Below, piece by piece: positions 10,520 through 34,829 of a stretch of DNA of 64,000 bases. The notes below the pieces were generated by a model, which saw nothing but the letters and a program-made list of their open reading frames with translations, was not told the origin of the DNA and did no database searches. A program made the translations under genes and the position numbers. The stretch lies in NCBI RefSeq assembly GCF_011947225.1, contig NZ_JAATVW010000011.1, positions 124,001 to 188,000 of the forward strand. The letters are read 5' to 3'. This DNA is from Planosporangium flavigriseum. Lineage in GTDB: Bacteria; Actinomycetota; Actinomycetes; Mycobacteriales; Micromonosporaceae. Numbering within the stretch: the stretch's first letter is position 1; the number at the start of each line of letters is the position of its first letter.

Positions 10520-10521
10520 GG

Positions 10522-14650: not shown

Positions 14651-14670
14651 CCGCCATGGCCATCAAACCC

Positions 14671-14738
14671 TTGACGCGCGTCCCCGCTCGCGGGATGGTG
14701 TTGTTTCTTATTCAGCGCGCTGATGCGTATGGCGCAAC
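14671..14738 (+). promoter_or_regulatory. Promoter with operator-like site before betB
   Basis: TTGACG at 14671 is followed 29 bp on by GTTGTTTCTTATTCAG (14700), and a near-palindromic GATGCGTATGGCGCAAC at 14722-14738 agrees with the glyA site at 12 of 17 positions. A weak partner 19 bp upstream (14703) is possible. The arrangement parallels the ferredoxin-reductase and soxB promoters but is less clear. Confidence 0.4.
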
Positions 14739-14750
14739 TTGGAGCCAACC

Positions 14751-16220
14751 GTGACAGAGCTGTACGTCGGCGGAGAATGGCGCACCCCGGTCGCCGGTGG
14801 TAGCCGCGAAATCCGCTGCCCTGCCGACGGCAGCCTGGTCGCGACCGTCGCCGAAGCCACGCGCGAGGACACCCTCGCCGCCATCGCCGCCGCGCGCGTT
14901 GCTTTTGACTCCGGCCCCTGGCCGTCGACCCCGGCCCGCGAACGCGGCGCGCTGCTCCTGCGCTTCGCGGACCTGATCGAACGGGACGCGAAGGACCTCG
15001 CCCGCGCCGAATCGCTCGACACCGGCAAGCGCCTGGTGGAGAGCGAATACGACATGGCCGACGTCGCCTCGTGCTTCCGGTACTACGGCGGCATCGCCGG
15101 CACCGACAGCGGCCGCGTCATCGACACCGGCCGCGCCGACGCGATCAGCCGGGTCGTGCACGAGCCGATCGGGGTGTGCGGCCTCATCACCCCGTGGAAC
15201 TACCCGCTGCTGCAGACGTCGTGGAAGGTCGCCCCGGCCCTCGCCGCCGGTAACACGTTCGTCCTCAAGCCCAGCGAGCTGACGCCCTCCACGGCGATCC
15301 TGCTCATGCGGATCCTCGAAGAGGCCGGGCTGCCGGCCGGCGTCGCCAACCTGGTGCTCGGTGCCGGCGCTTCAGCGGGGGCGCCCCTGGCCGAGCACCC
15401 GGACGTCGACCTGGTGTCGTTCACCGGGGGCCTGTCCACCGGGCGCGGAATCATGGCGGCCGCGGCCGCGACGGTGAAGCGGGTCGCCCTCGAACTGGGC
15501 GGCAAGAACCCGAACATCATCTTCGCCGACGCCGACTTCGACACCGCCGTCGACTTCGCGCTCACCGCGGTCTTCCTCCACTCCGGGCAGGTCTGCTCCG
15601 CTGGCGCCCGGCTCGTGGTGGAGGAGTCGATCCACGACGCCTTCGTCGACGCCGTGGTTTCGCGCGCTGAGAAGATCCGCCTCGGCGGCCCGTTCGACCC
15701 CGACGCGGAGACCGGCCCGCTGATCTCCGCCGCGCACCGGTCCAAAGTGGAGGCGTACGTCGCGGCCGGTGTAGCGGAGGGTGCGGTCCTGCGCTGCGGC
15801 GGCCGCCGACCCTCCGAGCCGCATTTGGCTGAGGGCTTCTACTACCGGCCGACCGTGCTGGACCGCTGCCACGCCGGCATGAGCGTCGTACGCGACGAGT
15901 CCTTCGGACCCGTCCTCACCGTCGAGACCTTCACGACCGAAGACGAGGCCGTCAGAATCGGCAACGACACCGACTACGGCCTCGCCGGGGCGGTGTGGAC
16001 CCAGGACGCCGGCAAGGCGCAGCGCGTCGCGCAGCGGCTGCGGCACGGCACCGTCTGGATCAACGACTACCACCCGTACGTGCCCCAGGCGGAGTGGGGC
16101 GGGTTCAAGCAGTCCGGGATCGGCCGCGAGCTGGGCCCGACCGGGCTCGACGAGTACCGCGAGACCAAGCACATCTGGCAGAACATCGACCCCCGTCCGC
16201 AGTACTGGTTCCGCGGCTAG
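14751..16220 (+). CDS. betB: Betaine-aldehyde dehydrogenase-like NAD aldehyde dehydrogenase
   Basis: A 489-residue aldehyde dehydrogenase. Visible: W-N-Y-P-L-L-Q, the NAD-site lysine in V-L-K-P-S-E, catalytic glutamate in L-E-L-G-G-K-N-P, and catalytic cysteine in G-Q-V-C-S-A-G-A. The NAD-loop motif reads F-T-G-G-L-S-T-G-R rather than the more usual F-T-G-S. I use the GTG at 14751, which has GGAG seven bases upstream. It follows choline dehydrogenase and precedes a glycine-betaine transporter, so oxidation of betaine aldehyde to betaine is the natural assignment. Related amino-aldehydes cannot be excluded. Confidence 0.82.
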
Positions 16221-16239
16221 AGCGCGCAGGAGAGGCGTC

Positions 16240-17319
16240 ATGAGTACCGAGACGGCGGCGCCGCCGCAACAGCAGGCCATCGAGTCCCGGTCCCCGGTCA
16301 TCTCGGTCAGGGACCTGTGGAAGGTGTTCGGGCCGAAGGCGGACCAGGTGCCCGGCTCGCCCGAGCTGGCCGGGCTGTCCCGGCGCGAGCTGATGGACCG
16401 CATGAACTGCACGGCCGCGGTTCGTGAAGTCACGTTCGACGTGGCGCCCGGCGAGGTGTTCGTCGTGATGGGGCTGTCCGGCTCCGGCAAGTCCACCCTG
16501 GTCCGGTGCCTGACCCGGCTCATCGAGCCGACCGCGGGCGAGGTGGTGTTCGAGGGCGAGGACATCCTGCACGCGGACAAGAAGCGGCTGCGCGAACTGC
16601 GCCGCCAGAAGTTCTCCATGGTCTTCCAGCACTTCGGCCTGCTCCCCTACCGGCGGGTCGTCGACAACGTCGCGTACGGCCTGGAGATCCGCGGCACCGG
16701 CAAGTCCGAGCGCACCAAGCGCGCCATGGAGATCATCGAACTCGTGGGCTTGAGCGGGTACGAGAACTCGTACCCCGACCAGCTGTCGGGCGGCATGCAG
16801 CAGCGGGTCGGGCTGGCCCGAGCGCTCGCCGGCGACCCGGACGTACTCTTCTTCGACGAGCCGTTCTCCGCGCTCGACCCGCTCATCCGCCGGGACATGC
16901 AGAACGAGGTCATCCGACTGCACCGCGAGGTCGGCAAGACGATGGTCTTCATCACCCACGACCTGTCCGAGGCGCTCAAGCTGGGCGACCGGATCCTCAT
17001 CATGCGCGACGGCAAGATGGTGCAGTGCGGTACGGGTGACGAGCTTGTCGGCGCGCCCGCCGACGACTACGTCCGGGATTTCGTCCGCGACGTGCCCCGC
17101 TCCCACGTCCTCACGCTGCGGTGGATCATGCGGGAGCCGCGGCCGGACGACGTACTGGACGGCCCGGAACTCGGCCCGGACGTCATCGTGCGGGACGCCA
17201 TTCGGGTGGTGCTCGCCGCCGAGAAGCCGGTGAAGGTGGTGGCGGACGGGAAGCTGCTCGGGATCGTCGGCGATGAGGAGATCCTCGCCGTGGTGGCCGG
17301 CACCGAGGCCGGTGCCTGA
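16240..17319 (+). CDS. proV: Glycine betaine/proline ABC transporter, ATP-binding subunit
   Basis: A 359-residue ProV/OpuAA-type ATPase: Walker [10 protein letters not shown] near residue 78, signature L-S-G-G-M-Q-Q-R-V, Walker [15 protein letters not shown]-loop T-H-D-L-S-E-A, followed by a C-terminal extension of about 90 residues. That tail holds one or two degenerate CBS motifs, which in this family sense ionic strength. It overlaps the permease gene by one base. The uptake target is betaine or choline, feeding the oxidation genes upstream. Confidence 0.9.
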
Positions 17320-19334
17320 TGGCCGTCACGACCACGACCACGCGCCCCGCCGTCGCGCCGGCTACGGCCCGTCGGGGGCGGCGCGCCAGCCGGCCCCTCG
17401 TCGTGGTCGGCATTCTGGCGATCTGGGTCGTCGGTTGGCTCCTGCTGCGCCATCGGGACACGCTGGCGCTGGGCAAGGCGGACCTGACGCCGCTGCACCG
17501 CTGGATCAACGACGTCAACGACACGGTCGGCGCCAACCGCAACACCAGCCCGATCTTCCTGTACTTCTTCAATGAGATCCGCCTGGTCATCGATACCCTG
17601 GTCACGTTCGTCCAGGGGCTGATCGCGCAGCCGTCGTTCGGGCGGCCGGTGCCCGTCCTGGGCTGGCTGGGCGTGGTCGCGCTCGTCGCGTACGCCGCCT
17701 GGGCGTTCGCCAACTGGCGGGTGGCGCTGCTCGCCGCGGCCGGGTTCGTGCTGTTCGGCCTGCAGGGGCTGTGGCGGGAGAGCATGGACACCCTCGCCCT
17801 CACGCTGTCGGCGGTCCTCGTCGCCCTGATCTTCGGCATCCCGCTCGGCATCTGGGCCGGGCTGTCGGACCGGTTCAACCGGCTGATCACACCGGTGCTG
17901 GACTTCATGCAGACCATGCCGACGTTCGTCTACCTCGCGCCGCTCACCCTGTTCTTCCTGATCGGACCGGCGTCGGCGACGATCGCGACCCTGATCTACG
18001 CCGCGCCGCCGGCTATCCGCCTCACCGCGCACGCCATCCGGTCGGTGCCCGAGTCGCCGCGCGAAGCGACCGAGTCGCTCGGTGCGACTCGGTGGCAGAC
18101 GCTGACGAAGGTGCTGCTGCCGCTGTCCAAGCGCACCATCGTGCTCGGCGCCAACCAGACGATCATGGCGGCGTTGTCGATGGTGACGATCGCGGCCCTC
18201 ATCGATGCGCCCGGCCTGGGCAAGACGGTCATCAAGGCGCTGCAGACCCTCGACGTGGGCACCGCGTTCAACGCGGGGCTCGCGATCGTGGTGATGGCCA
18301 TCGTCCTGGACCGGGTCACGACGGCGGCGAGCGCGCGGGTCGAGGAGGGCCGCCGGCACGTGGGCGGCCGGGCTGAGCGCCTGCGCCGGCCGCTACTGGC
18401 CGCCGGCGGCGTCGCGGCGCTGGTCTGCGCGTACCTGTCGTACACCTACGTCTGGGCGGCCGAGTTCCCGTCCGGCTTCGAGGTCGGCAGCTACGTCTCG
18501 CGGGCCGCCTCCGCTGTGACCGACTGGGCCCAGGGTGACGTCGGGACCGTCACCGGAGGTATCAAGGAAGCGGTCACCGTCGGCCTGCTGAACCCGTTCC
18601 AGGGCTTCCTGTCGGATTCGCCGTGGTGGCTGGTCGGCGCGGTCGTCGTGGCGCTCGCCGCGCTGCTCGGCAGTGTCCGCGCGGCCGTCACGGCCGCGGT
18701 GTGCGTGGGGCTGCTGGTGGCCACCGGGCTGTGGCAGGACAGCATGAGCACGCTTGCCATGACGATCGTCGCGACGCTGCTGACGATGGCGCTGGGCGTC
18801 CTCGTCGGGGTGTGGATGGGCCGCAACCGGCTCGCCGACCGGATCATCCGGCCGGTGCTGGACGCCGGCCAGACCATGCCGGCGTTCGTGTACCTGATCC
18901 CGTTCCTGGCCCTGTTCTCGGCCACCCGGTTCACCGCGATCGTCGCGGCGGTCGTGTTCGCCGCACCGGTTGCGATCAAGATCATCGCGGACGGGATCCG
19001 GGGCGTGCCCGAGACGACCGTGGAGGCCGCGACGGCGGCAGGGTCGAGCACCTGGCAGCTCATCACGAAGGTCCAGCTACCGATGGCGCGCCAGGCGCTG
19101 GTCCTCGCCGCCAACCAGGGCCTCATCTACGTGCTGTCCATGGTGGTCGTCGGCGCGCTCGTCGGCGCCGGCGCGCTCGGCTACGACGTGGTCGCCGGGT
19201 TCTCCCAGAACCAGCTGTACGGCAAGGGCCTCGCCGCCGGCGTCGCCATTGTCCTGCTCGGCATCATGCTCGACCGCATCACGTCCGCCGCGGCGCAGCG
19301 GTCGGGCGGCGGAACGATCCCCAGATACAAGTAA
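17319..19334 (+). CDS. proW: Betaine ABC transporter permease, two ProW domains fused in tandem
   Basis: At 671 residues this is about twice the usual ProW size. It contains two complete transporter permease domains: the first at about 150-335 (Q-T-M-P-T-F-V-Y-L-A-P through S-L-G-A-T-R-W-Q-T) and the second at about 480-665 (Q-T-M-P-A-F-V-Y-L-I-P through A-G-S-S-T-W-Q-L), each with its own EAA-type loop contacting the ATPase. Most ProU/OpuA systems use a homodimer of single-domain permeases; here one chain would supply both halves. No frameshift is involved. Confidence 0.9.
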   Translation: MAVTTTTTRPAVAPATARRGRRASRPLVVVGILAIWVVGWLLLRHRDTLALGKADLTPLHRWINDVNDTVGANRNTSPIFLYFFNEIRLVIDTLVTFVQGLIAQPSFGRPVPVLGWLGVVALVAYAAWAFANWRVALLAAAGFVLFGLQGLWRESMDTLALTLSAVLVALIFGIPLGIWAGLSDRFNRLITPVLDFMQTMPTFVYLAPLTLFFLIGPASATIATLIYAAPPAIRLTAHAIRSVPESPREATESLGATRWQTLTKVLLPLSKRTIVLGANQTIMAALSMVTIAALIDAPGLGKTVIKALQTLDVGTAFNAGLAIVVMAIVLDRVTTAASARVEEGRRHVGGRAERLRRPLLAAGGVAALVCAYLSYTYVWAAEFPSGFEVGSYVSRAASAVTDWAQGDVGTVTGGIKEAVTVGLLNPFQGFLSDSPWWLVGAVVVALAALLGSVRAAVTAAVCVGLLVATGLWQDSMSTLAMTIVATLLTMALGVLVGVWMGRNRLADRIIRPVLDAGQTMPAFVYLIPFLALFSATRFTAIVAAVVFAAPVAIKIIADGIRGVPETTVEAATAAGSSTWQLITKVQLPMARQALVLAANQGLIYVLSMVVVGALVGAGALGYDVVAGFSQNQLYGKGLAAGVAIVLLGIMLDRITSAAAQRSGGGTIPRYK

Positions 19335-20566: not shown

Positions 20567-20612
20567 GATCAGCAAGGACAGGGACTCGAACCCCGAACCC
20601 GCGGGTTAGGAG
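20567..20612 (-). repeat. tRNA-Arg(CCT) 3'-half fragment at the edge of the microcompartment locus
   Basis: On the minus strand this reads as an anticodon loop CTCCTAA, 3' anticodon stem CCCGC, variable loop, a T-arm (CGGGG-TTCGAGT-CCCTG) and part of an acceptor strand. The 5' half of the tRNA is absent: the preceding sequence is the end of the ddrA gene, whose TAA stop lies inside the anticodon loop. This looks like an attachment-site remnant at a tRNA-Arg gene. I find no second copy in the window. Confidence 0.6.
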
Positions 20613-22273
20613 GTAGCGAGTCCATACGCGACGGCGAACCGGTGGCCGAGCGAGCCTGACGCGCCGCCGTCACGGGCCAGCACCGCTCCGGCCGCGACTC
20701 GGCCGGCCGCGACCGCCCCGCGCCCGATCGGCGTGCCCGGCGGCAGCACCTCGGCGAGGGTCGCCAGTATCTCTTCGTCGGCGGCCGGACCGCCGACCAG
20801 CAGCACCGGCCGTTCCCGTTCGGACGAAGGCAGCGCGCTCAACGCCCGGTGGACCGCGACGCCGAGGACCGCCGCCTTGGCCCGGCGGCGTACCCCGCGC
20901 CACTCCGCCGGTGACCAGACGGTCGGCAACGGTACGAGGCCGAGCGGTCCGGTCGCACACAGCCGCCCGACGGTGTCGCCGCCGGCCGGCCGGTCGAGAA
21001 AAATCCGGGTGCCGTCCTCGGTGGTCGCCACGTCGGGCCCCTCGACGCGCATGGCGGGTCCGCGCTTGGCGTACTCGGCGAGCGCCTTGGGTACCTTCAG
21101 CGCGGCCGCTACCACCGCGGTGAGCAGGTCCCCGGCGCCGGCGACCGTCGCGGCGCCGGTGACTCCGATGACGTCGACCGTACCGCCACCGAGGTCGATG
21201 ACGAGCGCGCCGTCCGCGCCCGGGGTGGTGAGCGCGCCGGCCCGCGCCGCCGACGTCTCGGAGGTAACGAGGCGGGCGGGACGGTCGAGCAGCTTTTCGA
21301 GACACGCCACCGGGTCGACCAGGTCCTGCTCGCCCGCCAGGGTGGCCAGCACGAGTTCCGCGTCCGGCGAGCCCCGGCGAAGCTCACGCAGGACGGCCGC
21401 GACGTCGACGGCGGCCAGGTCCCCGACCGCGACGGGTCCGGTGCCGAGGTCGAGGGTGTACGGTCCGCCGTTCGTCGCCTGCGCGTCGGTCAGGTCGACC
21501 GGGCCGTCCCCGGCGTCGACCCACGGCCGGTGATCCTGGGAAGCGGCAACAGGCGGCAGCCCGTACGCCACCACGGCGTTCGAGGCGCCGTCGAGGCTGG
21601 CGGCCACGGCCGCGAGATATCCCGATGAGTCCGCCCCCAGCCCCAGCGAAGCCGCCATCGCGAACGCGTCCGTCACCTTCTGCAGCGCGCGGCCCGGCGG
21701 GCGCACCTCCATGGCCAGCAACCGAGCCGCAGCGGCCGAAGCAGCCGGTACCCCGTCGACGACCGGCAGCGACTGGCGCAGACGAGAACCGATCAGGACC
21801 GCCTCGTCCGACTCGACACAGACGCCGATGACGGCAAGGCCCGCCGACACCAGCCGGTTGATCCGGGCCGCCGCCTCCCGGAATCCCACCGACGCCGGCA
21901 CCACGATCACCTGCGGGCCGTCACCCAGTTGCGCGTCCCGCAAGACCGGCCAGGGCGTACCACACCCGAAGCCCTCGCCGCTCGCCGTCGTGGCGCCCCG
22001 GCGCAGGACCCGCAGCGGTCCGGTGTGGACGGTCGGCGCGGGTACCCGCACGGTCGACGTACGCACCGGCCGGAGCGCGGCCACGTGCACCGCCTCGACG
22101 TCGACCCGAGCCCGGGACGCGGTACGGGCCACCAACGCAGCCGCCGCCGTGATCGACGAAGGCGACCCCTTGGCGCCCCGGGTGGGGGCGCGGTCGGCAG
22201 CTACGACGCCGCCGTCACTGGAGACCAGCACCACCTCGGTGGTGGCATTGCCGATGTCGAGGCCCGCGATCAC
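20606..22273 (-). CDS. ddrA: Diol dehydratase reactivase, large (alpha) subunit
   Basis: A 555-residue chaperone-like ATPase that exchanges damaged cobalamin out of B12 diol dehydratase. The N-terminus I-A-G-L-D-I-G-N-A-T-T-E-V and the later V-I-D-L-G-G-G-T-V-D-V-I are the paired phosphate-binding motifs of the actin-like fold shared by PduG/DdrA. Length is close to family norm (about 600). The small reactivase subunit (DdrB/PduH) is not found anywhere in the window. It ends inside a tRNA-Arg fragment. It lies 14 bp downstream of the dehydratase small-subunit gene and is probably in one operon with it. Confidence 0.85.
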   Translation of the reverse strand: MIAGLDIGNATTEVVLVSSDGGVVAADRAPTRGAKGSPSSITAAAALVARTASRARVDVEAVHVAALRPVRTSTVRVPAPTVHTGPLRVLRRGATTASGEGFGCGTPWPVLRDAQLGDGPQVIVVPASVGFREAAARINRLVSAGLAVIGVCVESDEAVLIGSRLRQSLPVVDGVPAASAAAARLLAMEVRPPGRALQKVTDAFAMAASLGLGADSSGYLAAVAASLDGASNAVVAYGLPPVAASQDHRPWVDAGDGPVDLTDAQATNGGPYTLDLGTGPVAVGDLAAVDVAAVLRELRRGSPDAELVLATLAGEQDLVDPVACLEKLLDRPARLVTSETSAARAGALTTPGADGALVIDLGGGTVDVIGVTGAATVAGAGDLLTAVVAAALKVPKALAEYAKRGPAMRVEGPDVATTEDGTRIFLDRPAGGDTVGRLCATGPLGLVPLPTVWSPAEWRGVRRRAKAAVLGVAVHRALSALPSSERERPVLLVGGPAADEEILATLAEVLPPGTPIGRGAVAAGRVAAGAVLARDGGASGSLGHRFAVAYGLATS

Positions 22274-22286: not shown

Positions 22287-22652
22287 TCACCCTAGTAATC
22301 CGCGCGTGGCGTACCAGCTCGCGGCTTCGCGTACGAACGCCGCGGTGCGCGGCGCACCCTGCTCGTCGAGTCGGCGCGCAAGGGCCTCCAGCTCGTCGGC
22401 GGTGGAGCGGCCGGGTCGCAGCGCCTCGTACGCGGCGAGCACGTCGGCGTCGGGCAGCCGGGCCAGTTCGGCGGCGCGGCCCAGCGCGGAGGCCAGCTGC
22501 GGGTTGCCGTGATTCGCCGCGACCGCAGCCTGCGCGCGCAGGGCCGAGGGGTGGATGCGGACGTCATCGGGGCCGAGCGATCCCGCGCGCAGCGCCTCGA
22601 CGGTGACCTCGTCGAGCGGCCGTCCGGAGTACCCCCGTACCTGCTCAGTCAT
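22287..22652 (-). CDS. pduE: Diol/glycerol dehydratase small subunit
   Basis: A 121-residue small subunit: G-Y-S-G-R-P-L-D-E-V-T-V-E-A-L near the start, H-P-S-A-L-R-A-Q-A-A-V-A, and Y-E-A-L-R-P-G-R-S-T towards the end, all typical of PduE/DhaE. It lacks the roughly 30-residue N-terminal extension that in Salmonella PduE helps localisation to the microcompartment. The start overlaps the end of the large/medium fusion gene by 8 bp, so translation is coupled. Confidence 0.9.
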   Translation of the reverse strand: MTEQVRGYSGRPLDEVTVEALRAGSLGPDDVRIHPSALRAQAAVAANHGNPQLASALGRAAELARLPDADVLAAYEALRPGRSTADELEALARRLDEQGAPRTAAFVREAASWYATRGLLG

Positions 22653-24885
22653 CCATGACCTCCAACGAAAGCTCCTCCGGTGCCGAGCCAATATCGCAGC
22701 ATTCCCGTTCCAGCGCCACGAATGAAACCACACGGGTGTGGTACCTCGCCGTGATGGCGTCCTCCGAGTACGGGTTGAGCACCGGCTCCGGCGTGGCGCC
22801 CTTGGCGTGCCGGGCGGCGTTGACGGCCATCAGACGGTACATCTCGCGGGTGACGTGCGGCGCGACCGAGTACAGCTCCAGGTTGGCCAGCGGCGTGAGG
22901 TCGCGGCGGTGGATGAGCGCGGTCCCCTTGCCTTGCAGGCCGATCGACACACCGGAGCCGGAGAGCTGGGCGGCGGCCAGACCGATCTGCCCTAAGTCGA
23001 TAGAGGACTGTACGCGGACGATCCGACCACGGCAGCCCTCCTCTTCAAGACCGGCCAGCAGTTCGTCGAGGACGTCGAGCACGTCGAGGCCCGAGAGCGT
23101 ACGCCAGACGCTGCGGCCGAGCGCTGGGGAGACGCCGATGACGACCTCCCGCGGGTCGTTCGAAACAGCGGCGGCACCCAAACAAGACAGCCCCGGCCGG
23201 GCATAGGCGGCCTGCTCGGCGCGCAGGTCGGCGACCGACCGCTCCTGGCGGACAGCCGCGATCTCCGCGAGCCGTTCCGGACCCGGGACATAGCCCGTGC
23301 CCGGCCCGGCGTAGTCGTTGGGGTCGGTGACGGCGGACAGGCACCTCATCGACTCGTCGAAGATGGCGGCGGGTTGGAGGTAGTCGCCGGCGACCCGGGC
23401 GCGCAGCATGCCGAGGACCCGTTCGGCTTCCACGGAGAAGCCGCACTCGTCGAGGGCGGCGACGATGTCGAGGCCGGTCAGCCCGCTCTCGCCGATCATG
23501 CGGGCCGCCTGGAGCACCCGTAGCGGGTCGGGCTCGGGCAGGTCCCGGCTGCCGGCCGCGTGGACCACCGCCTCGACGTGTTCGTCGTCGAAGTCGGCCA
23601 GGCCGAGGTGGGCGTACACGGCGCGGACGGCCTCGGCGGCGCGTCTCCGTACGGCCAGAATGTACTCTTCGGTCGGTTGGCGCAGCGCGCCGTCGACGCC
23701 CCAGTCGCGCTGGAGCACCAGGTAGTCGTCGAGGTCCTCGGCGTTGAGGTTGGACGGGCCGAACATGTTGTCGTAGCGCGGGATGCTGCCGAAGCCGGAG
23801 ACGATGAAGTCGGAGCCGGCGAGGAACGTCGGCAGCGTCCGGGCCGTGCGGCGCATGTCGGACTCTGACATCAGGCTGTCGTTGCCGGAGCACGATTCCA
23901 GGCCGCGCAGCATCACCATGAGGTTCTCGTAGTGCAGCTCGAGGACCCCGCCGGGGACGCTCGCGGTGAGCGCGGCGGTGTCGATGCCGCCGTTCTGCAC
24001 GCCCTGCGCGCCGCAGGCCCGGGCGAGGGACACGCAGCGCGATTCGAGGTACAGCATCGAGCGCCCTTCGGCGCCGCCCATCAGCGCCTCGGAGCCGGCG
24101 CCGGACGACAGCCGCATCTTGACGCCACGGGAGGCGTACGCCGCGACGAGGAACGCCTTGGACCACGGGGTGTCGTCGCCGTCGACGAAGACCTGCTCGG
24201 TGCCGTACACGGAGACGGTCTCGGCGTAGGAGACCAGGCCGCGTACGCCGAGTTGGAGTTCGAGGGCCTCCTCGACCGAGCACTGGGTCAGCGCGCCGGC
24301 CGCGGCGACCTGGGAGCCGATGAGGACCGCCACCGCGTTGCTCGGGGCGTCGCCGAAGACCGGCACGGTGGTCTCGAGTTCGCGGAACCCGTACGCGACG
24401 GCGGTGGCCGCGTCGGCGGCGAGCAGCAGCGGGTCGTCGAGCCGGTTGGTGACGTGGGCCTGGTTGGACGGAGTGCGGCGCACGCGCATCTTCGCCAGGG
24501 CGATGGTGATCTCGTACGGCCGGATCTGCCGGACCACCGCGGCGAGCTTGGCCGGCGTCATGCCCGCGACGAGGCGGGTGATCTCGGCTCTCGGCACGGA
24601 CGGGTCCACGATCATGCGGGCGACGGTGACGTCGTCGGTCGCCATCGCCTCCTCGGCGACGGTCAGGTCGAGGCCGTGTTCGGCGATGAACGCGTCGACG
24701 ACGTCGAAGTCCTCGCGGCGCCGCCCGTCGAGTTCGACGACTACCCCGTCGGAGATGACGAGGCTGGGAAGCGGGTCCGCCGGCGACCAGAGCGCCGCCA
24801 GGCCGAGGGACGGGTCTTGTGCGGCCAGCCCGTCGAGGTTGACCGCCCGCCCGTCGAGCATCCGCAGCCGGCCCCAGCCGGTCAT
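22645..24885 (-). CDS. B12-dependent diol dehydratase, large and medium subunits fused
   Basis: One 746-residue chain: residues 1-550 are PduC-like and about 580-746 are PduD-like (V-I-G-V-S-P-A-L-G, then L-S-G-S-G-V-S-I-G-L-Q-G-K-G-T, then L-A-N-L-E-L-Y). Residues matching Klebsiella His143, Glu170, Glu221, Gln296, Asp335 and Ser362 are all present (here His144, Glu171, Glu222, Gln297, Asp336, Ser363). Two substrate-end positions differ: Ser301 is Asp302 and Gln336 is Ser337. The linker at 550-580 replaces the N-terminal encapsulation segment of PduD. The reaction is radical dehydration of a 1,2-diol to an aldehyde; the substrate is uncertain and may be a cationic diol. The start overlaps the amidase stop (ATGA). 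Confidence 0.9.
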   Translation of the reverse strand: MTGWGRLRMLDGRAVNLDGLAAQDPSLGLAALWSPADPLPSLVISDGVVVELDGRRREDFDVVDAFIAEHGLDLTVAEEAMATDDVTVARMIVDPSVPRAEITRLVAGMTPAKLAAVVRQIRPYEITIALAKMRVRRTPSNQAHVTNRLDDPLLLAADAATAVAYGFRELETTVPVFGDAPSNAVAVLIGSQVAAAGALTQCSVEEALELQLGVRGLVSYAETVSVYGTEQVFVDGDDTPWSKAFLVAAYASRGVKMRLSSGAGSEALMGGAEGRSMLYLESRCVSLARACGAQGVQNGGIDTAALTASVPGGVLELHYENLMVMLRGLESCSGNDSLMSESDMRRTARTLPTFLAGSDFIVSGFGSIPRYDNMFGPSNLNAEDLDDYLVLQRDWGVDGALRQPTEEYILAVRRRAAEAVRAVYAHLGLADFDDEHVEAVVHAAGSRDLPEPDPLRVLQAARMIGESGLTGLDIVAALDECGFSVEAERVLGMLRARVAGDYLQPAAIFDESMRCLSAVTDPNDYAGPGTGYVPGPERLAEIAAVRQERSVADLRAEQAAYARPGLSCLGAAAVSNDPREVVIGVSPALGRSVWRTLSGLDVLDVLDELLAGLEEEGCRGRIVRVQSSIDLGQIGLAAAQLSGSGVSIGLQGKGTALIHRRDLTPLANLELYSVAPHVTREMYRLMAVNAARHAKGATPEPVLNPYSEDAITARYHTRVVSFVALERECCDIGSAPEELSLEVMDD

Positions 24886-25904
24886 CGCCGCTTCCACACT
24901 GCTGCCGCAGCCCGCAGCCGGGCGTGGATCCCCCCGTACGGCTCGACGCCGGGCAGGTGCGCCTTGGCCACCTTGGCCACACAGGTGTAGTCGTTGTCGA
25001 CGACGTTGGCGATCGGCGCGAGCGAGGTCTGCGAGACGAGCTGGTACGCGTCGAGAATGGACAGTTGCAGCTCGGCGGCTACCCAGCCGACCATGTCGGC
25101 CTGGCTGATGCGGAACGCGTCCTCGAGCGGGCGGGCCGAGCCGGTCGACATGACGTACTCGTCGGTCTCGAGCCGTGGCCACGGCGTCGGCACGCCCTTG
25201 ATGAGGTCGATCAGGACGACGGTGTCCATGGCGGTCTCGACGGCGACGCCGCAGGTCTCGCCCTCGCCCTGCCGGGCGTGGCCGTCGCCGAAGCTGAACA
25301 GGGCGCCCTCGACGTTGACGCCGAGGTAGCAGGTCGCGCCGGCGCGCATCTCCGGGGTGTCCATGTTGCCGCCCCATGAGCCGGGGGTGAGCGACGAGCG
25401 CGCCTCGCCCAGCGGCGGCGCCACCCCGACGGTGCCGTGCATCGGGTCGAGCGGCAGTTCGACGACCAGGTCGCTGTCGCGGGCTTCGTACCGCACGACC
25501 CCGGCCGCCCGGTCGATGCCGTAGATCCAGGTGCGTTCGCCCAGCGCGGCCTGGAGCGTGGCCGTACGCGGGGTCGAGGTGAGCGCGCCGAAGAACGGGA
25601 CGGTGGTCGACACGCCCCACGACTCGCGTGGGGTGATGGAGACGAAGTGCACGACGAGCGTGTCCCCGGGCTCGGCGCCCTCGACGTAGAACGGCCCGGT
25701 CTGCGGGTTGAGGTAGCGGGGGTCGGTGACCTGGGTGGGCAGGTCGTCGACCGTACGCACCGCGCCGTTGAAGCAGTCGCGGGTCCAGGTCGACAGGAAG
25801 GTGCCCGGGGCGATCTGGGCCACCGGTTCCGCCCCGCCGAACGTGTAGACGAGCTGGCTCGCCGGGGCGTCGGGGTCGGGCGCGTACTCGAAAAACGAAG
25901 CCAC
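24882..25904 (-). CDS. Acetamidase/formamidase-family amidase
   Basis: A 340-residue FmdA/AmdA-family protein. Family features visible: T-G-P-F-Y-V-E-G-A-E-P-G-D-T-L-V-V near residue 70, H-G-T-V-G-V-A-P in the middle, G-G-N-M-D-T-P-E-M with the metal-site aspartate, and F-S-F-G-D-G-H-A-R-Q-G-E-G-E. These enzymes release ammonia or an amine from simple amides. It is the first gene of the operon carrying the diol dehydratase, with a four-base overlap, so the amide it cleaves may supply the amine or diol used by the locus. The substrate is not inferable from sequence alone. Confidence 0.88.
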   Translation of the reverse strand: MASFFEYAPDPDAPASQLVYTFGGAEPVAQIAPGTFLSTWTRDCFNGAVRTVDDLPTQVTDPRYLNPQTGPFYVEGAEPGDTLVVHFVSITPRESWGVSTTVPFFGALTSTPRTATLQAALGERTWIYGIDRAAGVVRYEARDSDLVVELPLDPMHGTVGVAPPLGEARSSLTPGSWGGNMDTPEMRAGATCYLGVNVEGALFSFGDGHARQGEGETCGVAVETAMDTVVLIDLIKGVPTPWPRLETDEYVMSTGSARPLEDAFRISQADMVGWVAAELQLSILDAYQLVSQTSLAPIANVVDNDYTCVAKVAKAHLPGVEPYGGIHARLRAAAAVWKRR

Positions 25905-25969: not shown

Positions 25970-27514
25970 TCAGTCACGCTCGTGAGTGTCCTCCAGGACG
26001 ATGCGCCCGATGGTCTCGTACCGGCGCGGGTTGCGGGCCCGGAAGTACAGCGCCAGCGCGATACCGGCGGCGAAGACTGCCACGACGAGGTACGGCGTGA
26101 GCTTGAACAGCAGGGTCTTCGCCGCGGCGCCGGCGGCGAAGTCCTTGTTCACCCACAGCAGGTAGACCACGTAGAGCATGCCGAGGCCACCGATGAGCGG
26201 CGCCACCAGGGTGCGGAACCAGTTCGCCGTCTCGGGGTGGTTCTTGCCGACGTGGAAGTACCCGATGACCCCGAACGCGCACAGCGCCTGGACGATCAGG
26301 ATCGCCATGGTGCCGAGGATGGCCAGCAGGGCGTACAGGTCGCCGTACGGGTCCTTGTTGAAGGCCAGGAAGCCGAGCACCAGCACGGTCGCCAGGCCGG
26401 TCTGCACGAACGAGGCGACGTGCGGGGAGCCGTGCTTGCCGTGGGTACGGCCGATCGTGCGCCGGAACCCGGGCAGCAGGTCCTCGCGGCCGAGGGCGTA
26501 GATGTAGCGGGCGGCGCAGTTGTGGAACGCCATGCCGCAGGCGAACGAGCCGGTCATCAGCAGGACGCTGAACAGGTCGACGGCCCACGATCCGACGAGT
26601 TCCTTGGTCGGGCCGAAGAAGATGTCGCCGGCGGTCGCGGTGTCCTGCCCCAGCTTGATCGCGTTGGCCGGGCCGGTGCCGGCGATGGCCATCCAGGAGA
26701 CGAACACGTAGAACAGGCCGATGCCGACGACGGAGAGCATCGTCGCCCGCGGGATGACCCGCTTCGGGTCGCGGGACTCCTCGCCGTACATGGCGGTCGA
26801 CTCGAAGCCGACCCACGACCAGAACGCGAAGAACAGGCCGATGCCCGCGGTCGCGCCGGCCACTCCGGTCGCCGACTTGAACGCGTTGAGCGGGTTGATG
26901 GACTCCACCGCCAGGCCCTCCGGGCCGCCGCCGTGGAACAGCACCGCGAGCGCCATCAGCGCGAGCATCAGGATCTCGGTGAGCAGGAAGAAGCCGAGCA
27001 CCTTGGCAGTGAGGTTGATGTCGTAGTAGGCGAGCACGGCGTTGAGCGCCAGCATGACCAGCGCGAAGACGATCCACGGCACCTTGGTGTCGGTGTACCG
27101 CTGCACCGTCGACTGGGCGAAGAAGCTGAAGATGCCGACGAGCGACGCCTCGAACACGATGTAGGCCATCGTGATGAGCGCGCCGGCGCCCATGCCGACG
27201 ACCCGGCCCAGGCCGTGCGAGATGTAGCCGTAGAACGCGCCGGTGGCGGTGATGTGCTTGGCCATGGCGGAGTAGCCGAGCGCGAACAGGCTCAGCACGA
27301 TCGTCGCCACGAGGTAGCCGGCGGGCGCGTACGAGCCGTTGCCGAAGCCGACCGCGATCGGCACGTTGCCGACCATGGCGGTGATCGGGGCGGCTGTCGC
27401 CACCGCCATGAAGATGACGCCGATGATGCCGACGGCGTTCTTCTTTAATCGCTGGACCTCGCCGGCACCGGAGGCCCCGGTCCCGACGCTGCCAATCATC
27501 TCGTTGGTGCTCAC
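25970..27514 (-). CDS. APC-family amino acid/amine permease
   Basis: A 514-residue permease with twelve or so hydrophobic segments. The first carries the APC-family substrate-binding bend (A-V-A-T-A-A-P-I-T-A-M), and the sixth region contains F-A-F-W-S-W-V-G-F-E-S-T-A-M-Y-G-E-E. It is divergent from the microcompartment genes and leads the amidase/dehydratase operon. RMM-type loci usually carry an APC permease, and uptake of the amino-alcohol substrate is the expected role. The intergenic region with the aminotransferase gene contains GGCAGACCA-type sites. Confidence 0.88.
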   Translation of the reverse strand: MSTNEMIGSVGTGASGAGEVQRLKKNAVGIIGVIFMAVATAAPITAMVGNVPIAVGFGNGSYAPAGYLVATIVLSLFALGYSAMAKHITATGAFYGYISHGLGRVVGMGAGALITMAYIVFEASLVGIFSFFAQSTVQRYTDTKVPWIVFALVMLALNAVLAYYDINLTAKVLGFFLLTEILMLALMALAVLFHGGGPEGLAVESINPLNAFKSATGVAGATAGIGLFFAFWSWVGFESTAMYGEESRDPKRVIPRATMLSVVGIGLFYVFVSWMAIAGTGPANAIKLGQDTATAGDIFFGPTKELVGSWAVDLFSVLLMTGSFACGMAFHNCAARYIYALGREDLLPGFRRTIGRTHGKHGSPHVASFVQTGLATVLVLGFLAFNKDPYGDLYALLAILGTMAILIVQALCAFGVIGYFHVGKNHPETANWFRTLVAPLIGGLGMLYVVYLLWVNKDFAAGAAAKTLLFKLTPYLVVAVFAAGIALALYFRARNPRRYETIGRIVLEDTHERD

Positions 27515-27535
27515 CTGTTCCCCTCTCGGTCACGA

Positions 27536-27679
27536 CAGACCAGCGGAGCGTTGGATCCGCAGCGCTGTGACCGCGGCCACAGCATGGTGCAGGGATCGTG
27601 ACACCAATGGTCTGGTTACACAAGGGGCTGGTCAGCCCAGAAATGGTTCGTGGCAGACCATTGACTGTTTTGGTCTGCC
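27536..27679. promoter_or_regulatory. Divergent control region of the microcompartment locus with GntR-type sites
   Basis: Between the permease and aminotransferase genes there are four TGGTCTG/CAGACCA elements: 27536-27542, 27608-27614, and a perfect inverted pair GGCAGACCA (27652-27660) and TGGTCTGCC (27671-27679) spaced 10 bp apart. HutC-type GntR proteins bind related GGTCT-AGACC sequences. The locus encodes such a protein at 34830, whose own upstream region has a partial match. Confidence 0.55.
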
Positions 27680-27742
27680 CGGTTCATTCTTGGTCCAGCC
27701 GACGCCCGATCCCGGGACGGCGCCAGCCCTCGGAGGTGGTGG

Positions 27743-29029
27743 GTGCACGACTACGGTGCGTTCTCCTACGCGTCCAAGGACGAGATGATCGGCAAGTCCA
27801 AGGAGTTCTGGAACCCGGACAAGACCCAGTTCTGGCAGGACTCCGGCGTCGACCTCGTCATCGACCGGCGCGAGGGCTACTACCTGTGGGACATGCACGG
27901 CCGGCGGCTGATCGACGTCCACCTCAACGGCGGCACGTACAACCTCGGCCACCGCAACCCCGAAGTTGTTGCCGCCGTGACCGCGGCCATGGGCCACTTC
28001 GACATCGGCAACCACCACTTCCCGTCGCTCGCCCGTACCGCCCTCGCCGAAGCCCTCATCAAGAGCGCACCCGCCGGACTGACCAAAGTGGCCTACGGGT
28101 CAGGCGGCGGCGAGGCCATCGACATCGCGCTCAAGACCGCGCGGCACACCACGCAGAAGCGGAAGATCGTCTCGATCGTCAAGGCGTACCACGGCCACAC
28201 CGGCCTCGCCGTCGGCGCGGGCGACCAGCGCTTCTCCGAACTGTTCCTCTCCGACCGGCCGGAGGAGTTCCCGCAGGTGCCGTTCAACGACCTCGACGCG
28301 ATGGAGCAGGCGCTCCGCGGTCGGGACGTCGCCGCGGTCATCATGGAGACCATCCCGGCCACGTACGGCTTCCCGCTTCCCGAGCCGGGCTACCTGGAGG
28401 CCGTCAAGGCGCTCTGCGAGCGGTACGACGCCCTGTACATCGCCGACGAGGTGCAGACCGGTCTGATGCGTACCGGCGAGATGTGGGGCATCACCAAGCA
28501 CGGCATCTCCCCCGACATCCTCGTCACCGGCAAGGGCATCTCCGGGGGCATCTACCCGATCAGCGCCGTCCTGATGAGCGAGCGCGCCGCGGGGTGGCTG
28601 CGCGAGGACGGCTTCGGCCACATGTCCACGTTCGGCGGCGCCGAACTGGGCTGCATCGCCGCGCTCAAGACGCTCGAGATCTGCGGCCGGCCCGAGGTCC
28701 GCACGATGGTCCACTACATCTCGGACCTGATGCAGTCGGGGCTCGCCGACATCCAGCGCGACTACCCCGACTGGTTCACCGGCGTGCGCGCCAACGGCGT
28801 CGTCATGGGCCTGGAGTTCAACCACCCGCAGGGCGCCAAGTACGTCATGAAGCACCTGTACGAGACCGGGGTCTGGGCCATCTTCTCCACGCTCGACCCG
28901 ACGGTCCTGCAGTTCAAGCCCGGCATCCTGCTCACCCCGGCGCTGGCCGAGGAAATCCTGGACCGCACGGAGGTCGCTATCGGCAAGGCCTGCGCCGAGG
29001 TGCGCGGCCGCGGACGGAGGGTGCGCTAG
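27743..29029 (+). CDS. Class III PLP aminotransferase of the microcompartment locus
   Basis: A 428-residue aminotransferase, GTG start. Class III features: G-G-G-E-A-I-D-I-A (cofactor phosphate region), A-Y-H-G-H-T-G, I-A-D-E-V-Q-T-G before the PLP region, and the lysine in T-G-K-G-I-S-G-G-I-Y-P. In the RMM microcompartments of mycobacteria an aminotransferase of this class belongs to the 1-amino-2-propanol degradation set, together with the dehydrogenase, kinase and aldehyde dehydrogenase seen here. It may remove the amino group from aminoacetone or an amino-aldehyde. Its stop adjoins the aldehyde dehydrogenase start. Confidence 0.85.
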   Translation: MHDYGAFSYASKDEMIGKSKEFWNPDKTQFWQDSGVDLVIDRREGYYLWDMHGRRLIDVHLNGGTYNLGHRNPEVVAAVTAAMGHFDIGNHHFPSLARTALAEALIKSAPAGLTKVAYGSGGGEAIDIALKTARHTTQKRKIVSIVKAYHGHTGLAVGAGDQRFSELFLSDRPEEFPQVPFNDLDAMEQALRGRDVAAVIMETIPATYGFPLPEPGYLEAVKALCERYDALYIADEVQTGLMRTGEMWGITKHGISPDILVTGKGISGGIYPISAVLMSERAAGWLREDGFGHMSTFGGAELGCIAALKTLEICGRPEVRTMVHYISDLMQSGLADIQRDYPDWFTGVRANGVVMGLEFNHPQGAKYVMKHLYETGVWAIFSTLDPTVLQFKPGILLTPALAEEILDRTEVAIGKACAEVRGRGRRVR

Positions 29030-30610
29030 ATGCCGCAGCCGTTGGAATACCTCGCCGAGCCGGCCGGGGTCCCCCGCGCCCGCCAGATGCTCCAGCAGGC
29101 GCAGTGGGCCGCCCGCGCGTTCGCCGGGTACGACCGCGCGAGCGTGCTGCGCATCGCCGAGGCGGTCGCCGACGCCGCAGCCGCCAAGGCCCGGCACTAC
29201 GCCGAGTGGGCCGTCCGGGAGACCGGCTTCGGCGTCGTCGAACACAAGGTCGTCAAGAACGAGGCGTGCTCGCGCGGCATCTTCCAGACGTACCGCGACA
29301 CCGACCTGGTCACCCCGCGCGTCGACGCTTCGCGGAAGTTGGTCTCCGTGCCGCGGCCGGCGGGGGTGGTCCTCGCGCTGACGCCGTCGACCAACCCGGT
29401 GGCGACGGTCTACTTCAAGACGATGCTGGCGCTGCTGACCCGCAACGCCGTCGTCATCAGCCCGCACCCGATGGCGAAGGAGTGCTGCGCCGACGCGGCC
29501 CGCATGATGGCCGCCGCCGCCGTCGCCGCCGGCGCGCCGGAGGGCGTCATCCAGGTCGTCGACGAGCCGTCCGTCCCGCTCATCAACGCGCTGATGACCG
29601 ACGAGCGCACCTCGGTCATCGTCGCGACCGGCGGCACCCCGGTCGTGCGCTCGGCGTACTCCTCCGGCAACCCGGCCATCGGCGTCGGCCCCGGCAACGT
29701 GCCGGTCCTGGTCGACGCGAGCGCCGACCTCGCCGCCGCGGCCAAGCGGATCGTGGCGTCGAAGGCGTTCGACAACTCCGTGCTCTGCACCAACGAGAGC
29801 GTCCTCATCGTCGAGGAGTCGGTCGCCGACCGGCTGCTCGCCGCGATGAAGCGTGAGGGGGCGCTGCTCCTCGACTCCGACGGCGCGCGGCGGCTGCGGG
29901 AGTACATGTTCGGAAACGGCCACCTCAACACCGAGGTCGTCGGCAAGCCGGCGGCCTGGATCGCCGACCGGGCCGGGGTACGGGCGGGCGCGAAGACGAC
30001 CGTGCTGCTGGCGCCGTTCGATCTCGTCGTACCCGAGGAGCCACTCGCCCACGAGAAGCTCTCGCCGGTCCTCGGCGTCGTCCGGGTACCCAGCGCCGCC
30101 CGCGGCATCGACGCCGCCCGGGCGGTGGTCCGCATCGCCGGCGCCGGCCACTCGGCCGCGATCCACTCCAGCGACCCGGCCACGATCATGGCGTACGCGG
30201 CGAGCGTCCCCGTCCTGCGGGTGTCGGTCAACGTCGGCAACTCCACCGGAAGCTCCGGCCTGGAGACCAACCTCGCGCCGACCATGACGGTCGGTACCGG
30301 GTTCGTCGGACGCAGCTCGCTCGGCGCCAACCTCGAGCCGAAGAACCTCGTGAACTGGACGCAGATCGCCTACAACGCCGACCCGCGCGAGGTGATGCCG
30401 AGCTTCACCGGCATCGTGCCGTGGGCCGCGCCGCGCGGCCCGGTCCCGCCGTACCCGGTCGCCAGCAACGCGGCCGGCGTTCTTAAGGCCCCGCCTGCGA
30501 CGCTCCAGCCGGCCGCCAGCGACCTCGCTGGGACGGCCACCGCCGACGAACTGCGCGAGCACGTGCGCCGGCTGATCGTCGAAGAGCTCTCCCACTTCGT
30601 CAAGAACTAA
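29030..30610 (+). CDS. Microcompartment aldehyde dehydrogenase with C-terminal encapsulation-type helix
   Basis: A 526-residue enzyme of the CoA-acylating PduP/EutE/AdhE type, with T-P-S-T-N-P-V-A-T-V, A-T-G-G-T-P-V-V-R-S-A-Y-S, G-V-G-P-G-N-V-P, and catalytic cysteine 253 in N-S-V-L-C-T-N-E-S. After a Pro/Ala-rich linker (about 475-503) the last 20 residues, E-L-R-E-H-V-R-R-L-I-V-E-E-L, form an amphipathic helix of the kind that targets enzymes to shells. Its product is probably an acyl-CoA, though RMM family members may work without CoA. It is followed 13 bp later by the first shell gene. Confidence 0.88.
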   Translation: MPQPLEYLAEPAGVPRARQMLQQAQWAARAFAGYDRASVLRIAEAVADAAAAKARHYAEWAVRETGFGVVEHKVVKNEACSRGIFQTYRDTDLVTPRVDASRKLVSVPRPAGVVLALTPSTNPVATVYFKTMLALLTRNAVVISPHPMAKECCADAARMMAAAAVAAGAPEGVIQVVDEPSVPLINALMTDERTSVIVATGGTPVVRSAYSSGNPAIGVGPGNVPVLVDASADLAAAAKRIVASKAFDNSVLCTNESVLIVEESVADRLLAAMKREGALLLDSDGARRLREYMFGNGHLNTEVVGKPAAWIADRAGVRAGAKTTVLLAPFDLVVPEEPLAHEKLSPVLGVVRVPSAARGIDAARAVVRIAGAGHSAAIHSSDPATIMAYAASVPVLRVSVNVGNSTGSSGLETNLAPTMTVGTGFVGRSSLGANLEPKNLVNWTQIAYNADPREVMPSFTGIVPWAAPRGPVPPYPVASNAAGVLKAPPATLQPAASDLAGTATADELREHVRRLIVEELSHFVKN

Positions 30611-30623: not shown

Positions 30624-31226
30624 GTGGCCGAACTCCGCTCGTTCATCTTCATCGACCGGCTGCAGCCGCAGACCATGTGCTATCTCGGCACGTGGATCCG
30701 CGGCACGCTGCCACGCTCGAGCATGGCCTCGCAGATCATCGAGATCGCGCCCGGCCTCGACATCGAGCCGCTGACCGACGTCGCGGTCAAGCACGCGGAG
30801 GTCGGCGCCGGCATCCTCGTGGTGGAGCGCCAGTTCGGCTACCTGGAGATCCACGGCCGTACCGACGAGGTCAAGGCGGCCAGCGCCGCCGTCCTCGACG
30901 CGCTGGGCGCCGTCGCCACCGACGCGATGCGGCCGAAGATCCTGGCCAGCACCATCATCTCCAGCATCGACCAGCAGCACGCCTTCCTGATCAACCGCAA
31001 CAAGATGGGCTCGATGGCGCTGCCCGGAGAAACGCTGTTCGTCATGGAGATGCAGCCCGCCTCGTACGCGATCCTCGCGACCAACGAGGCCGAGAAGGCG
31101 GCGAACATCAAGGTCGTCGACTACCGGATGATCGGCGCCACCGGGCGGGTGTACCTCACCGGCAAGGAGGCCGACGTACGGCAGGCGGCGGAGGCGGCCG
31201 AGACGGCACTGCAGGAGCTGTCATGA
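30624..31226 (+). CDS. BMC-T shell protein (tandem BMC domains), first copy
   Basis: A 200-residue shell protein of two BMC domains that assembles as a trimer to form hexagonal tiles. Domain 1 (residues 3-95) holds I-L-V-V-E-R-Q-F-G-Y-L-E-I-H-G and domain 2 (100-198) holds R-N-K-M-G-S-M-A-L-P-G-E-T and Y-R-M-I-G-A-T-G-R-V-Y-L-T-G. It is homologous to the second BMC-T at 32310, so the two arose by duplication. RMM loci of mycobacteria have exactly two BMC-T genes. GTG start; overlaps the next gene by four bases. Confidence 0.92.
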   Translation: MAELRSFIFIDRLQPQTMCYLGTWIRGTLPRSSMASQIIEIAPGLDIEPLTDVAVKHAEVGAGILVVERQFGYLEIHGRTDEVKAASAAVLDALGAVATDAMRPKILASTIISSIDQQHAFLINRNKMGSMALPGETLFVMEMQPASYAILATNEAEKAANIKVVDYRMIGATGRVYLTGKEADVRQAAEAAETALQELS

Positions 31227-31747
31227 CCACCGACCCCCTCGCCGGCGACCTGCTGCGGGCCCTGGTCCGCGAGGTGCTGACCGACATCGTGCGGGAGTCA
31301 CTGCCCGCGGCGAGTCCGGCTGGCTACGAAGCGCCGCCGGCCGACGCGGCCCCGTCCGCCATCATGCCCACGGCGCGCGGCGGCTACGCCCCGGTCGCCG
31401 GTGCACCGGTCCAGAGTGCGCGCGTGGAGGACGTCGTCCTCCGTACCGATGAAGATCTTCAGGGTTTCGCGCTCCGGCTGCTCGGGCTCTTCGAGAACCC
31501 GAAGGCCCGCGAAGATGTCCGCAGTGGACGGTTGCGGTTCCGGCTGGCCGGAACGGCCGTCGCCCCGGGGGCCGCGGCGCCGGCCGGGGCCGTCCAGCGG
31601 ATCGAGAAGGGCGCGGTGACCGAGCGGCACATCAAGGCGGCCGCCGCCGCGGGCGCCCGCCTCGCGCTCGGGCGCGGCGCCGTGCTCACGCCGCTCGCCC
31701 GCGAAAAGGCCCGGGCCCTCGGGGTCCACGTCGAGAAGGAGCGGTAG
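31223..31747 (+). CDS. Microcompartment-associated protein with N-terminal targeting helix
   Basis: A 174-residue protein of unknown activity. Residues 6-28 (L-A-G-D-L-L-R-A-L-V-R-E-V-L-T-D-I-V) form an amphipathic helix like known encapsulation peptides, followed by a Pro/Ala-rich linker (about 30-65). A small domain at 70-110 and a C-terminal R-I-E-K-G-A-V-T-E-R-H-I then L-T-P-L-A-R-E-K-A-R-A-L-G-V complete it; the last segment recurs in other microcompartment proteins. It may be a cargo scaffold or linker. Starts at an ATG overlapping the BMC-T stop. Confidence 0.7.
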   Translation: MTTDPLAGDLLRALVREVLTDIVRESLPAASPAGYEAPPADAAPSAIMPTARGGYAPVAGAPVQSARVEDVVLRTDEDLQGFALRLLGLFENPKAREDVRSGRLRFRLAGTAVAPGAAAPAGAVQRIEKGAVTERHIKAAAAAGARLALGRGAVLTPLAREKARALGVHVEKER

Positions 31748-32002
31748 ATGCTGCACGCCGTCGTGACCGGCAACGTCTGGGCCACCAAGCGCGTCGAGGG
31801 ACTGCCCCACGGCGCCTTCCTCGAAGTGCAGATCGAGGGTACGGACTCCCGGCTGATCGCCTTCGACGTCCTGGGCAGCGGGGTCGGTGAGCGGGTGCTC
31901 ATCGCCACCGGATCGGTCGCCGCCGCCTGGTTCCCCGGCAAGCCGCCGCCCATCGACGCGCTGATCATCGGCGCCATCGACGACCCGGCGAGCGCCGGCT
32001 AG
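31748..32002 (+). CDS. BMC-P pentameric vertex protein (EutN/CcmL family)
   Basis: An 84-residue vertex protein: G-N-V-W-A-T-K-R-V near the start, F-D-V-L-G-S-G-V-G-E-R-V-L-I-A-T-G-S and D-A-L-I-I-G-A-I-D at the end, all family hallmarks. Five copies cap each vertex of the icosahedral shell; its presence means the shell can close. It begins directly after the preceding stop (TAGATG). Confidence 0.95.
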   Translation: MLHAVVTGNVWATKRVEGLPHGAFLEVQIEGTDSRLIAFDVLGSGVGERVLIATGSVAAAWFPGKPPPIDALIIGAIDDPASAG

Positions 32003-32044
32003 TCCCCTGTCCACTCCCGTCCCACGACAGAAAGAGGAAGACCA

Positions 32045-32326
32045 ATGGCCCAGATGGCGATCGGCATGATCGAAACCAAGGGTTACGTGGCCGCGCTCGC
32101 GGCGGCCGACGCGATGGTCAAGGCCGCCAACGTCACCATCGTCGACCGCCAGGAGGTCGGCGATGGCCTCGTCGCGGTGGTCATCACCGGTGACGTCGGC
32201 GCCGTGAAGGCCGCCTCGGAGGCCGGCGCGGAGACCGCGTCGCAGGTCGGCGAGCTGGTCTCGGTCCACGTGATCCCGCGCCCGCACAGCGAGCTCGGCC
32301 GGCACTTCAATGTCTCAGGGGACTGA
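32045..32326 (+). CDS. BMC-H hexameric shell protein
   Basis: A 93-residue canonical BMC domain: [20 protein letters not shown] near the start, then [13 protein letters not shown], and V-H-V-I-P-R-P-H at the end. It is the standard facet tile of the shell. The start has a good AAAGAGGAAG site. Its last 17 bp overlap the start of the second BMC-T gene. Confidence 0.96.
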
Positions 32327-32957: not shown

Positions 32958-32970
32958 GGAGGTGACACCG

Positions 32971-34770: not shown

Positions 34771-34790
34771 TACGGCAGACTTTGGTCAGG
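34771..34790. promoter_or_regulatory. Partial GntR-type site before the gntR gene
   Basis: GGCAGAC (34774-34780) followed by TTTGGTCAGG resembles half of the GGCAGACCA/TGGTCTGCC operator found before the aminotransferase gene. It lies about 55 bp upstream of the GntR start, so autoregulation is plausible. The match is incomplete. Confidence 0.3.
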
Positions 34791-34829
34791 AGACAATCGG
34801 ACCGGGTACGAGGAGGAGAAGTCGCGATC

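Follow-up and report, generated by a model that had tools for sequence, protein, structure and literature searches.

AdoCbl-dependent diol dehydratases are treated as propanediol or glycerol enzymes, and annotation gives the same names to the branch with Asp or Glu at residue 302 that is described here. A kinase and a lyase perform steps of the amino-alcohol pathway of RMM compartments, and this route would converge with the 1,2-propanediol route on propionaldehyde. The RMM enzymes act on aminoacetone and 1-amino-2-propanol (PMC4207490; PMC8156839). RMM1, the locus type for use of these two compounds, has no diol dehydratase (PMC4207490). Axen et al. introduced RMM2 as a type of locus in 2014; it carries a diol dehydratase on the opposite strand, and the use of this enzyme by the compartment was doubted (PMC4207490). 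Literature accounts also mention RMM2 loci in Epsilonproteobacteria and Paracoccus.

The window analyzed here, a stretch of 64,000 nucleotides from Planosporangium flavigriseum, contains a locus with all components of RMM2: shell genes, an aldehyde dehydrogenase, a class-III PLP enzyme, a phosphotransferase, an SDR, a permease, a GntR regulator and a diol dehydratase on the opposite strand. Like RMM2 (Axen et al., 2014; PMC4207490) it combines RMM enzymes and shell with this dehydratase; in difference to RMM2 it also has an FmdA-like gene, and the partnership with kinase and lyase is seen here also without any shell. The window shares its kinase, PLP enzyme, SDR, aldehyde dehydrogenase and shell genes with RMM1, which, unlike the window, lacks the dehydratase. 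The features are:

20606-22273, minus strand: diol dehydratase reactivase, large-subunit type (Pfam DDR, 119 bits; DDR_swiveling, 72 bits).
22287-22652, minus strand: dehydratase small subunit (Pfam Dehydratase_SU, 111 bits; start and N-terminus read from the sequence).
22645-24885, minus strand: fused large-medium subunit of an AdoCbl diol dehydratase, 746 aa (Pfam Dehydratase_LU and Dehydratase_MU; PDB match 9vij/1dio).
23875-23877, minus strand: codon of Ser337, aligned with Gln336 of Klebsiella oxytoca (coordinates computed from the ORF start at 24885).
23980-23982, minus strand: codon of Asp302, aligned with K. oxytoca Ser301 (coordinates computed likewise).
24882-25904, minus strand: FmdA/AmdA-like gene, overlapping the dehydratase start (Pfam FmdA_AmdA, 85 bits).
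25970-27514, minus strand: APC-superfamily permease, 66-72% identical to a mycobacterial permease sited between dehydratase and lyase.
27515-27742: divergent intergenic region, with CAATGGTCTG at 27605-27614 and the inverse CAGACCATTG at 27654-27663.
27743-29029, plus strand: class-III PLP enzyme of the RMM, the proposed amino-alcohol phosphate lyase (75% identity to the Aminotran_3 protein of locus L054; NCBIfam class-III relatives).
29030-30610, plus strand: RMM aldehyde dehydrogenase (Pfam Aldedh; acylating aldehyde dehydrogenase relatives).
30624-32957, plus strand: RMM shell and accessory genes (ORFs at 30624-31226, about 31223-31747, 31748-32002, 32045-32326 with a BMC domain, and 32310-32957).
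32938-33948, plus strand: phosphotransferase of the APH fold, RMM amino-alcohol kinase (Pfam APH, 93 bits; 53% identity to the L054 RMM kinase).
33963-34724, plus strand: RMM short-chain dehydrogenase (SDR), by position of the 1-amino-2-propanol/aminoacetone type (Pfam adh_short_C2; 64% identity to the L054 SDR).
34782-35621, plus strand: GntR/UTRA regulator (Pfam UTRA and GntR).

The product of 32310-32957 is 71% identical to a shell protein of the Rhodococcus jostii RMM. The locus is flanked on one side by genes for a choline dehydrogenase, a betaine-aldehyde dehydrogenase and a choline ABC transporter (12989-19334) and on the other by a DAO-type oxidase and sarcosine oxidase-like subunits (36391-41387).

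In the dehydratase ORF, Pfam Dehydratase_LU covers residues 6-551 (794 bits against a cut-off of 25) and Dehydratase_MU residues 587-699 (85 bits against 27). The ORF is therefore a fusion of large and medium subunit, which had gone unmentioned in an earlier sequence-only reading of this DNA. The start of the small-subunit gene overlaps its end. With scores of 794, 85 and 111 bits for the three subunit domains against Pfam cut-offs of 25-27, the enzyme belongs to the AdoCbl diol/glycerol dehydratase family, and AdoCbl-dependent dehydration of vicinal diols is its predicted activity. It resembles PduCDE/DhaB (PF02286/PF02288/PF02287) in family, in catalytic and metal-binding residues, in the set of subunits and in the nearby reactivase. 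However, it differs from them in the fusion, in an Asp (or Glu) and a small residue in place of Ser301 and Gln336, in a small subunit without encapsulation helix and in having amine instead of pdu neighbors.

The window ORF aligns with chain B of 9vij, a fused glycerol dehydratase, collinearly, with identical numbering and without gaps across the pocket; relative to K. oxytoca diol dehydratase (1dio chain A) the residue numbers are shifted by one. These alignments to solved structures bear out that all catalytic residues are retained. His143, Glu170, Glu221, Gln296, Asp335 and Ser362 (K. oxytoca numbering) are all conserved, and among the catalytic and metal positions of the window enzyme Gln142, His144, Glu171, Glu222, Thr223, Gln297, Asp336, Ser363 and Phe375 are canonical. 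The Ser301/Gln336 pair of canonical propanediol and glycerol dehydratases is replaced by Asp302 and Ser337. In one binding mode the C3 hydroxyl of glycerol points to Ser301, and exchange of either Ser301 or Gln336 for alanine increases the propanediol Km by a factor of about 6 to 10 (PMC7674605). Given the gap-free alignment and this role of Ser301, the pair proposed from the sequence alone is correct and lies at the far end of the substrate. The pocket flanks shift along with residue 302, for example Gly to Pro at 175, Tyr to Asp at 179, Ala to Cys at 332, Thr to Leu at 338, His to Glu at 341 and Ser to Gly at 366. An AlphaFold model, for which the rows from plasmid records were left out of the alignment, has a mean pLDDT of 69.9 but values below 50 at residues 299-302 and 334-375, and was therefore not used for the pocket. 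Arg327 was considered as a general internal counter-ion of Asp302. It is missing in the rhizobial, the Glu302 and some Asp302 members, so that Asp302 need not be neutralized by it.

The acidic residue is not confined to the window. Since the 79 loci fetched by similarity are skewed to relatives of the window, canonical enzymes were collected independently, from plasmids and through genome-wide Pfam searches. Residue 302 is Asp or Glu in all 44 non-redundant members of the branch, from actinobacteria and two rhizobial plasmids, and residue 337 is Ser, Thr, Ala or Asn, never Gln. Outside the branch, all 26 sequences have Ser302 and 24 of them Gln337; a further 30 canonical loci from the same order are Ser302/Gln337 without exception. 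In a tree of the 70 non-redundant sequences the Asp/Glu302 and Ser302 enzymes separate on a single branch (SH-aLRT 99), and the split stays when the columns around the pocket are removed (SH-aLRT 97). An acidic residue 302 combined with loss of Gln337 is thus a branch-wide trait, neither chance nor a quirk of a single gene. A long branch leads to the rhizobial members, and their common origin with the actinobacterial ones is favored rather than certain; the alphaproteobacterial sampling consists of plasmid records. No report of this pocket branch was found in the literature.

Glu302 is confined to one sub-lineage, which in two genomes directly adjoins an Asp302 paralog, indicating that the charge is retained though the residue differs. 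In these actinobacterial MAGs the divergent neighbors are Asp302/Thr337 and Glu302/Thr337 enzymes (L020, 3384-6827 minus and 8794-11223 plus; L021, 3774-8492 minus and 8911-11223 plus), and such natural pairs lend themselves to testing whether a longer or shorter acidic side chain determines the length of the substrate. Two further enzymes stand apart. A fused actinobacterial dehydratase with Ser302/Ala337 (L089, wider stretch L129) falls outside the Asp/Glu group, at the end of a long branch, and is possibly an intermediate or a third specificity; a split dehydratase with Ser302/Tyr337, near a possible MIP-type channel, is unlike the other canonical members (L124, wider stretch L151).

To compare the gene neighborhoods, non-redundant loci with enough flank were used. 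Of 31 Asp/Glu302 loci, 20 have an APC permease and 13 have a kinase together with a class-III PLP lyase, whereas all 20 Ser302 loci lack both; in a second Ser302 set from the order of the window both were absent from all 16 loci. The permeases of the branch fall into several homolog groups. A MIP facilitator was dropped as transporter contrast, as the motif matched only one canonical locus. Among 399 genomes of the order, 18 have the RMM lyase and 19 an Asp302-type dehydratase (residue 302 read directly in 18, G926 assigned by score), and 16 have both. In contrast, the lyase occurs in one of 31 genomes with a canonical dehydratase alone, four of which (G706, G715, G723, G767) were assigned by score. 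Fisher's p of 1e-23 for lyase against dehydratase type is only nominal because the genomes are related, and neither the locus nor the genome associations are corrected for phylogeny; the joint occurrence is seen in at least four families (f1, f2, f8, f13).

This partnership does not depend on a shell. Seven of the 13 kinase plus lyase loci have no BMC shell gene in the locus, and in eight Asp302 genomes, all at least 98% complete, lyase, kinase and SDR adjoin the dehydratase while no BMC domain is found genome-wide. The dehydratase is thus partnered with the amino-alcohol enzymes and not with the shell. The sequence-only reading had proposed to look for covariation of Asp302 with RMM linkage, but the residue does not change between linked, unlinked and shell-less loci. 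Its argument from the surrounding amine genes and amidase stands in part: APC permeases and the kinase and PLP lyase are enriched at Asp/Glu302 loci. The amidase, however, is a weak pointer to an amine substrate, as FmdA-like genes occur only in the sub-branch of the window and the window gene diverges from known formamidases (54 bits against an NCBIfam cut-off of 500). The choline/betaine and sarcosine genes were likewise set aside; none were seen in related loci and they are taken as specific to the window.

On plasmids of Agrobacterium cucumeris and Shinella zoogloeoides a fused Asp302/Thr337 dehydratase lies in a same-strand, operon-like run of ABC transporter, dehydratase, SDR, phosphotransferase, class-III PLP enzyme and GntR regulator (L099, 8977-16837; L152, 10001-17868). 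The transporter is of the sugar type, no amine permease is present and no reactivase is annotated. As in the RMM, a kinase and a class-III PLP enzyme stand beside the Asp302 dehydratase. However, no shell accompanies this PRK06148-type pair, and in the Agrobacterium operon it shares only some 27% identity with its RMM counterparts and matches another model family. The two pairs are therefore not close orthologs, and a comparable chemistry appears to have been acquired on two occasions next to the Asp302 pocket.

Some 20 mycobacterial loci, both shell-bearing and shell-less, carry a palindrome of the pattern TGTGGTCTATACCACA or a variant of it between the lyase and the permease-dehydratase operons. 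A matrix derived from nine of the sites gives few hits at other places in 2.56 Mb, and dehydratases remote from amine genes lack the palindrome. The window carries related half-sites instead; CAATGGTCTG and CAGACCATTG are possible GntR-type operator elements. A GluQRS-like gene recurs next to the GntR, SDR and kinase genes in shell-less mycobacterial loci (L055, 2477-3358, minus strand).

The N-terminal encapsulation helix, which is present in the BMC-linked canonical small subunits of L081, L135, L136 and L142, is absent from the small subunit in the window and in the inspected members of the branch. The window enzyme is therefore probably cytosolic and outside the shell. This bears on the question raised in 2014 about the use of the RMM2 dehydratase, as its partners are the amino-alcohol enzymes and not the shell. 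The N-terminus of the accessory protein encoded at 31223-31747 (LLRALVREVLTDIVRESL) resembles an encapsulation helix.

The acidic residue kept throughout the branch and the near-constant company of amino-alcohol genes in the order suggest that the substrate is probably an amino-diol and not propanediol. On balance we slightly favor, as best explanation, a cytosolic AdoCbl diol dehydratase that serves amino-alcohol catabolism and belongs to a branch whose specificity has shifted to a cationic amino-diol, with 3-amino-1,2-propanediol as leading candidate. Since His144, Glu171, Asp336 and all metal ligands are retained, the standard radical chemistry of propanediol dehydratase should proceed, with hydrogen abstraction, 1,2-shift of the hydroxyl group and loss of water. 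At the C3 end, the carboxylate and a small residue in place of the Ser301/Gln336 lining would bind the ammonium group, and by normal regiochemistry 3-amino-1,2-propanediol would yield 3-aminopropanal. The enzyme would work in the cytosol, beside an amino-alcohol pathway of transport, SDR, kinase and PLP lyase that is packed into an RMM in some hosts only. The earlier idea that a carboxylate at this end could bind a positive charge gains from the conservation of Asp or Glu throughout the branch and from the amine-handling partners; the contact between Asp302 and the ammonium group itself is one that we infer. However, 3-aminopropanal is not an expected substrate of the neighboring kinase and lyase, so that the tight partnership is not fully explained. 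A literature search found no amino-diol-specific AdoCbl dehydratase; the name 3-amino-1,2-propanediol itself is not searchable because of its comma.

The enzyme might still be a propanediol dehydratase in effect, with Asp302 tolerated or tuning affinity and propionaldehyde passing into the RMM aldehyde dehydrogenase that also serves the amino-alcohol route. Its canonical catalytic residues agree with this, both routes would meet at one aldehyde, the K. oxytoca enzyme retains activity towards 1,2-propanediol when S301A and Q336A are combined (PMC7674605), and Axen et al. considered a bifunctional compartment (PMC4207490). Paracoccus yeei TT13, a cited RMM2 bearer that grows on propylene glycol, was not accepted as proof of a propanediol role, as its genome paper reports no pdu operon. 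A carboxylate next to the methyl group would be unfavorable, however; the single mutations already raise the Km for propanediol, Asp or Glu is fixed in the branch, the RMM aldehyde dehydrogenase is missing from the shell-less loci and Ser302 enzymes seldom co-occur with the lyase. Such a convergent role is possible, but it fits charge and co-occurrence poorly, and we consider it unlikely. A neutral polyol, too, can donate hydrogen bonds to a carboxylate, which counts against the amino-diol. Asp302 would then hold glycerol, a triol or a tetritol, and the amine neighbors would reflect a shared niche and not a shared substrate. The sugar-type transporters of the rhizobial operons point in this direction, as do the many mycobacterial Asp302/Asn337 enzymes with no amine genes within 9 kb; two Asp302 genomes with neither lyase nor shell (G735, G418) also count against the amino-diol. 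Yet the hydrogen bond from the glycerol C3 hydroxyl to Ser301 is tied to suicide inactivation (PMC7674605), which a carboxylate might worsen, and within the order the lyase accompanies Asp302 enzymes far more often than Ser302 enzymes, so that a polyol substrate appears rather improbable.

The incompletely explained partnership would be accounted for if the regiochemistry were reversed, with hydrogen abstracted at C2 of 3-amino-1,2-propanediol to give aminoacetone, which SDR, kinase and lyase would convert in series to propionaldehyde. Dehydratase, SDR, kinase and lyase, which are found together repeatedly in actinobacteria and rhizobia, would then act along a single linear route; the dehydratase family makes butanone from 2,3-butanediol (PMC7674605), and the RMM has been proposed to metabolize aminoacetone (PMC8156839). 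Nevertheless, the amine would sit on the carbon losing hydrogen, probably away from Asp302, and no precedent with amino-diols was found; we regard reversal as very doubtful. Just as speculative is a new B12 specificity class of amino-diol dehydratases feeding amino-alcohol degradation, possibly via aminoacetone, in which dehydratase, SDR, kinase, lyase and aldehyde dehydrogenase would form one route from 3-amino-1,2-propanediol to propionyl-CoA with or without a microcompartment. If the branch uses amino-diols at all, many mycobacterial and other genomes are misannotated, and the enzyme would represent a new radical activity for the production of amino-aldehydes.

Two observations concern RMM genes elsewhere. 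On plasmid pRHL2 of Rhodococcus jostii RHA1 a group of four genes (BMC, hypothetical, EutN, BMC) occurs twice with identical protein accessions (L219, 7330-8926 and 11223-12819). In Phyllobacterium a homolog of the RMM lyase, 59% identical to that of the window, lies by an alkaline phosphatase-family gene and near phnF (L218, 6733-10148), so that the lyase family is also found in a phosphonate-type setting.
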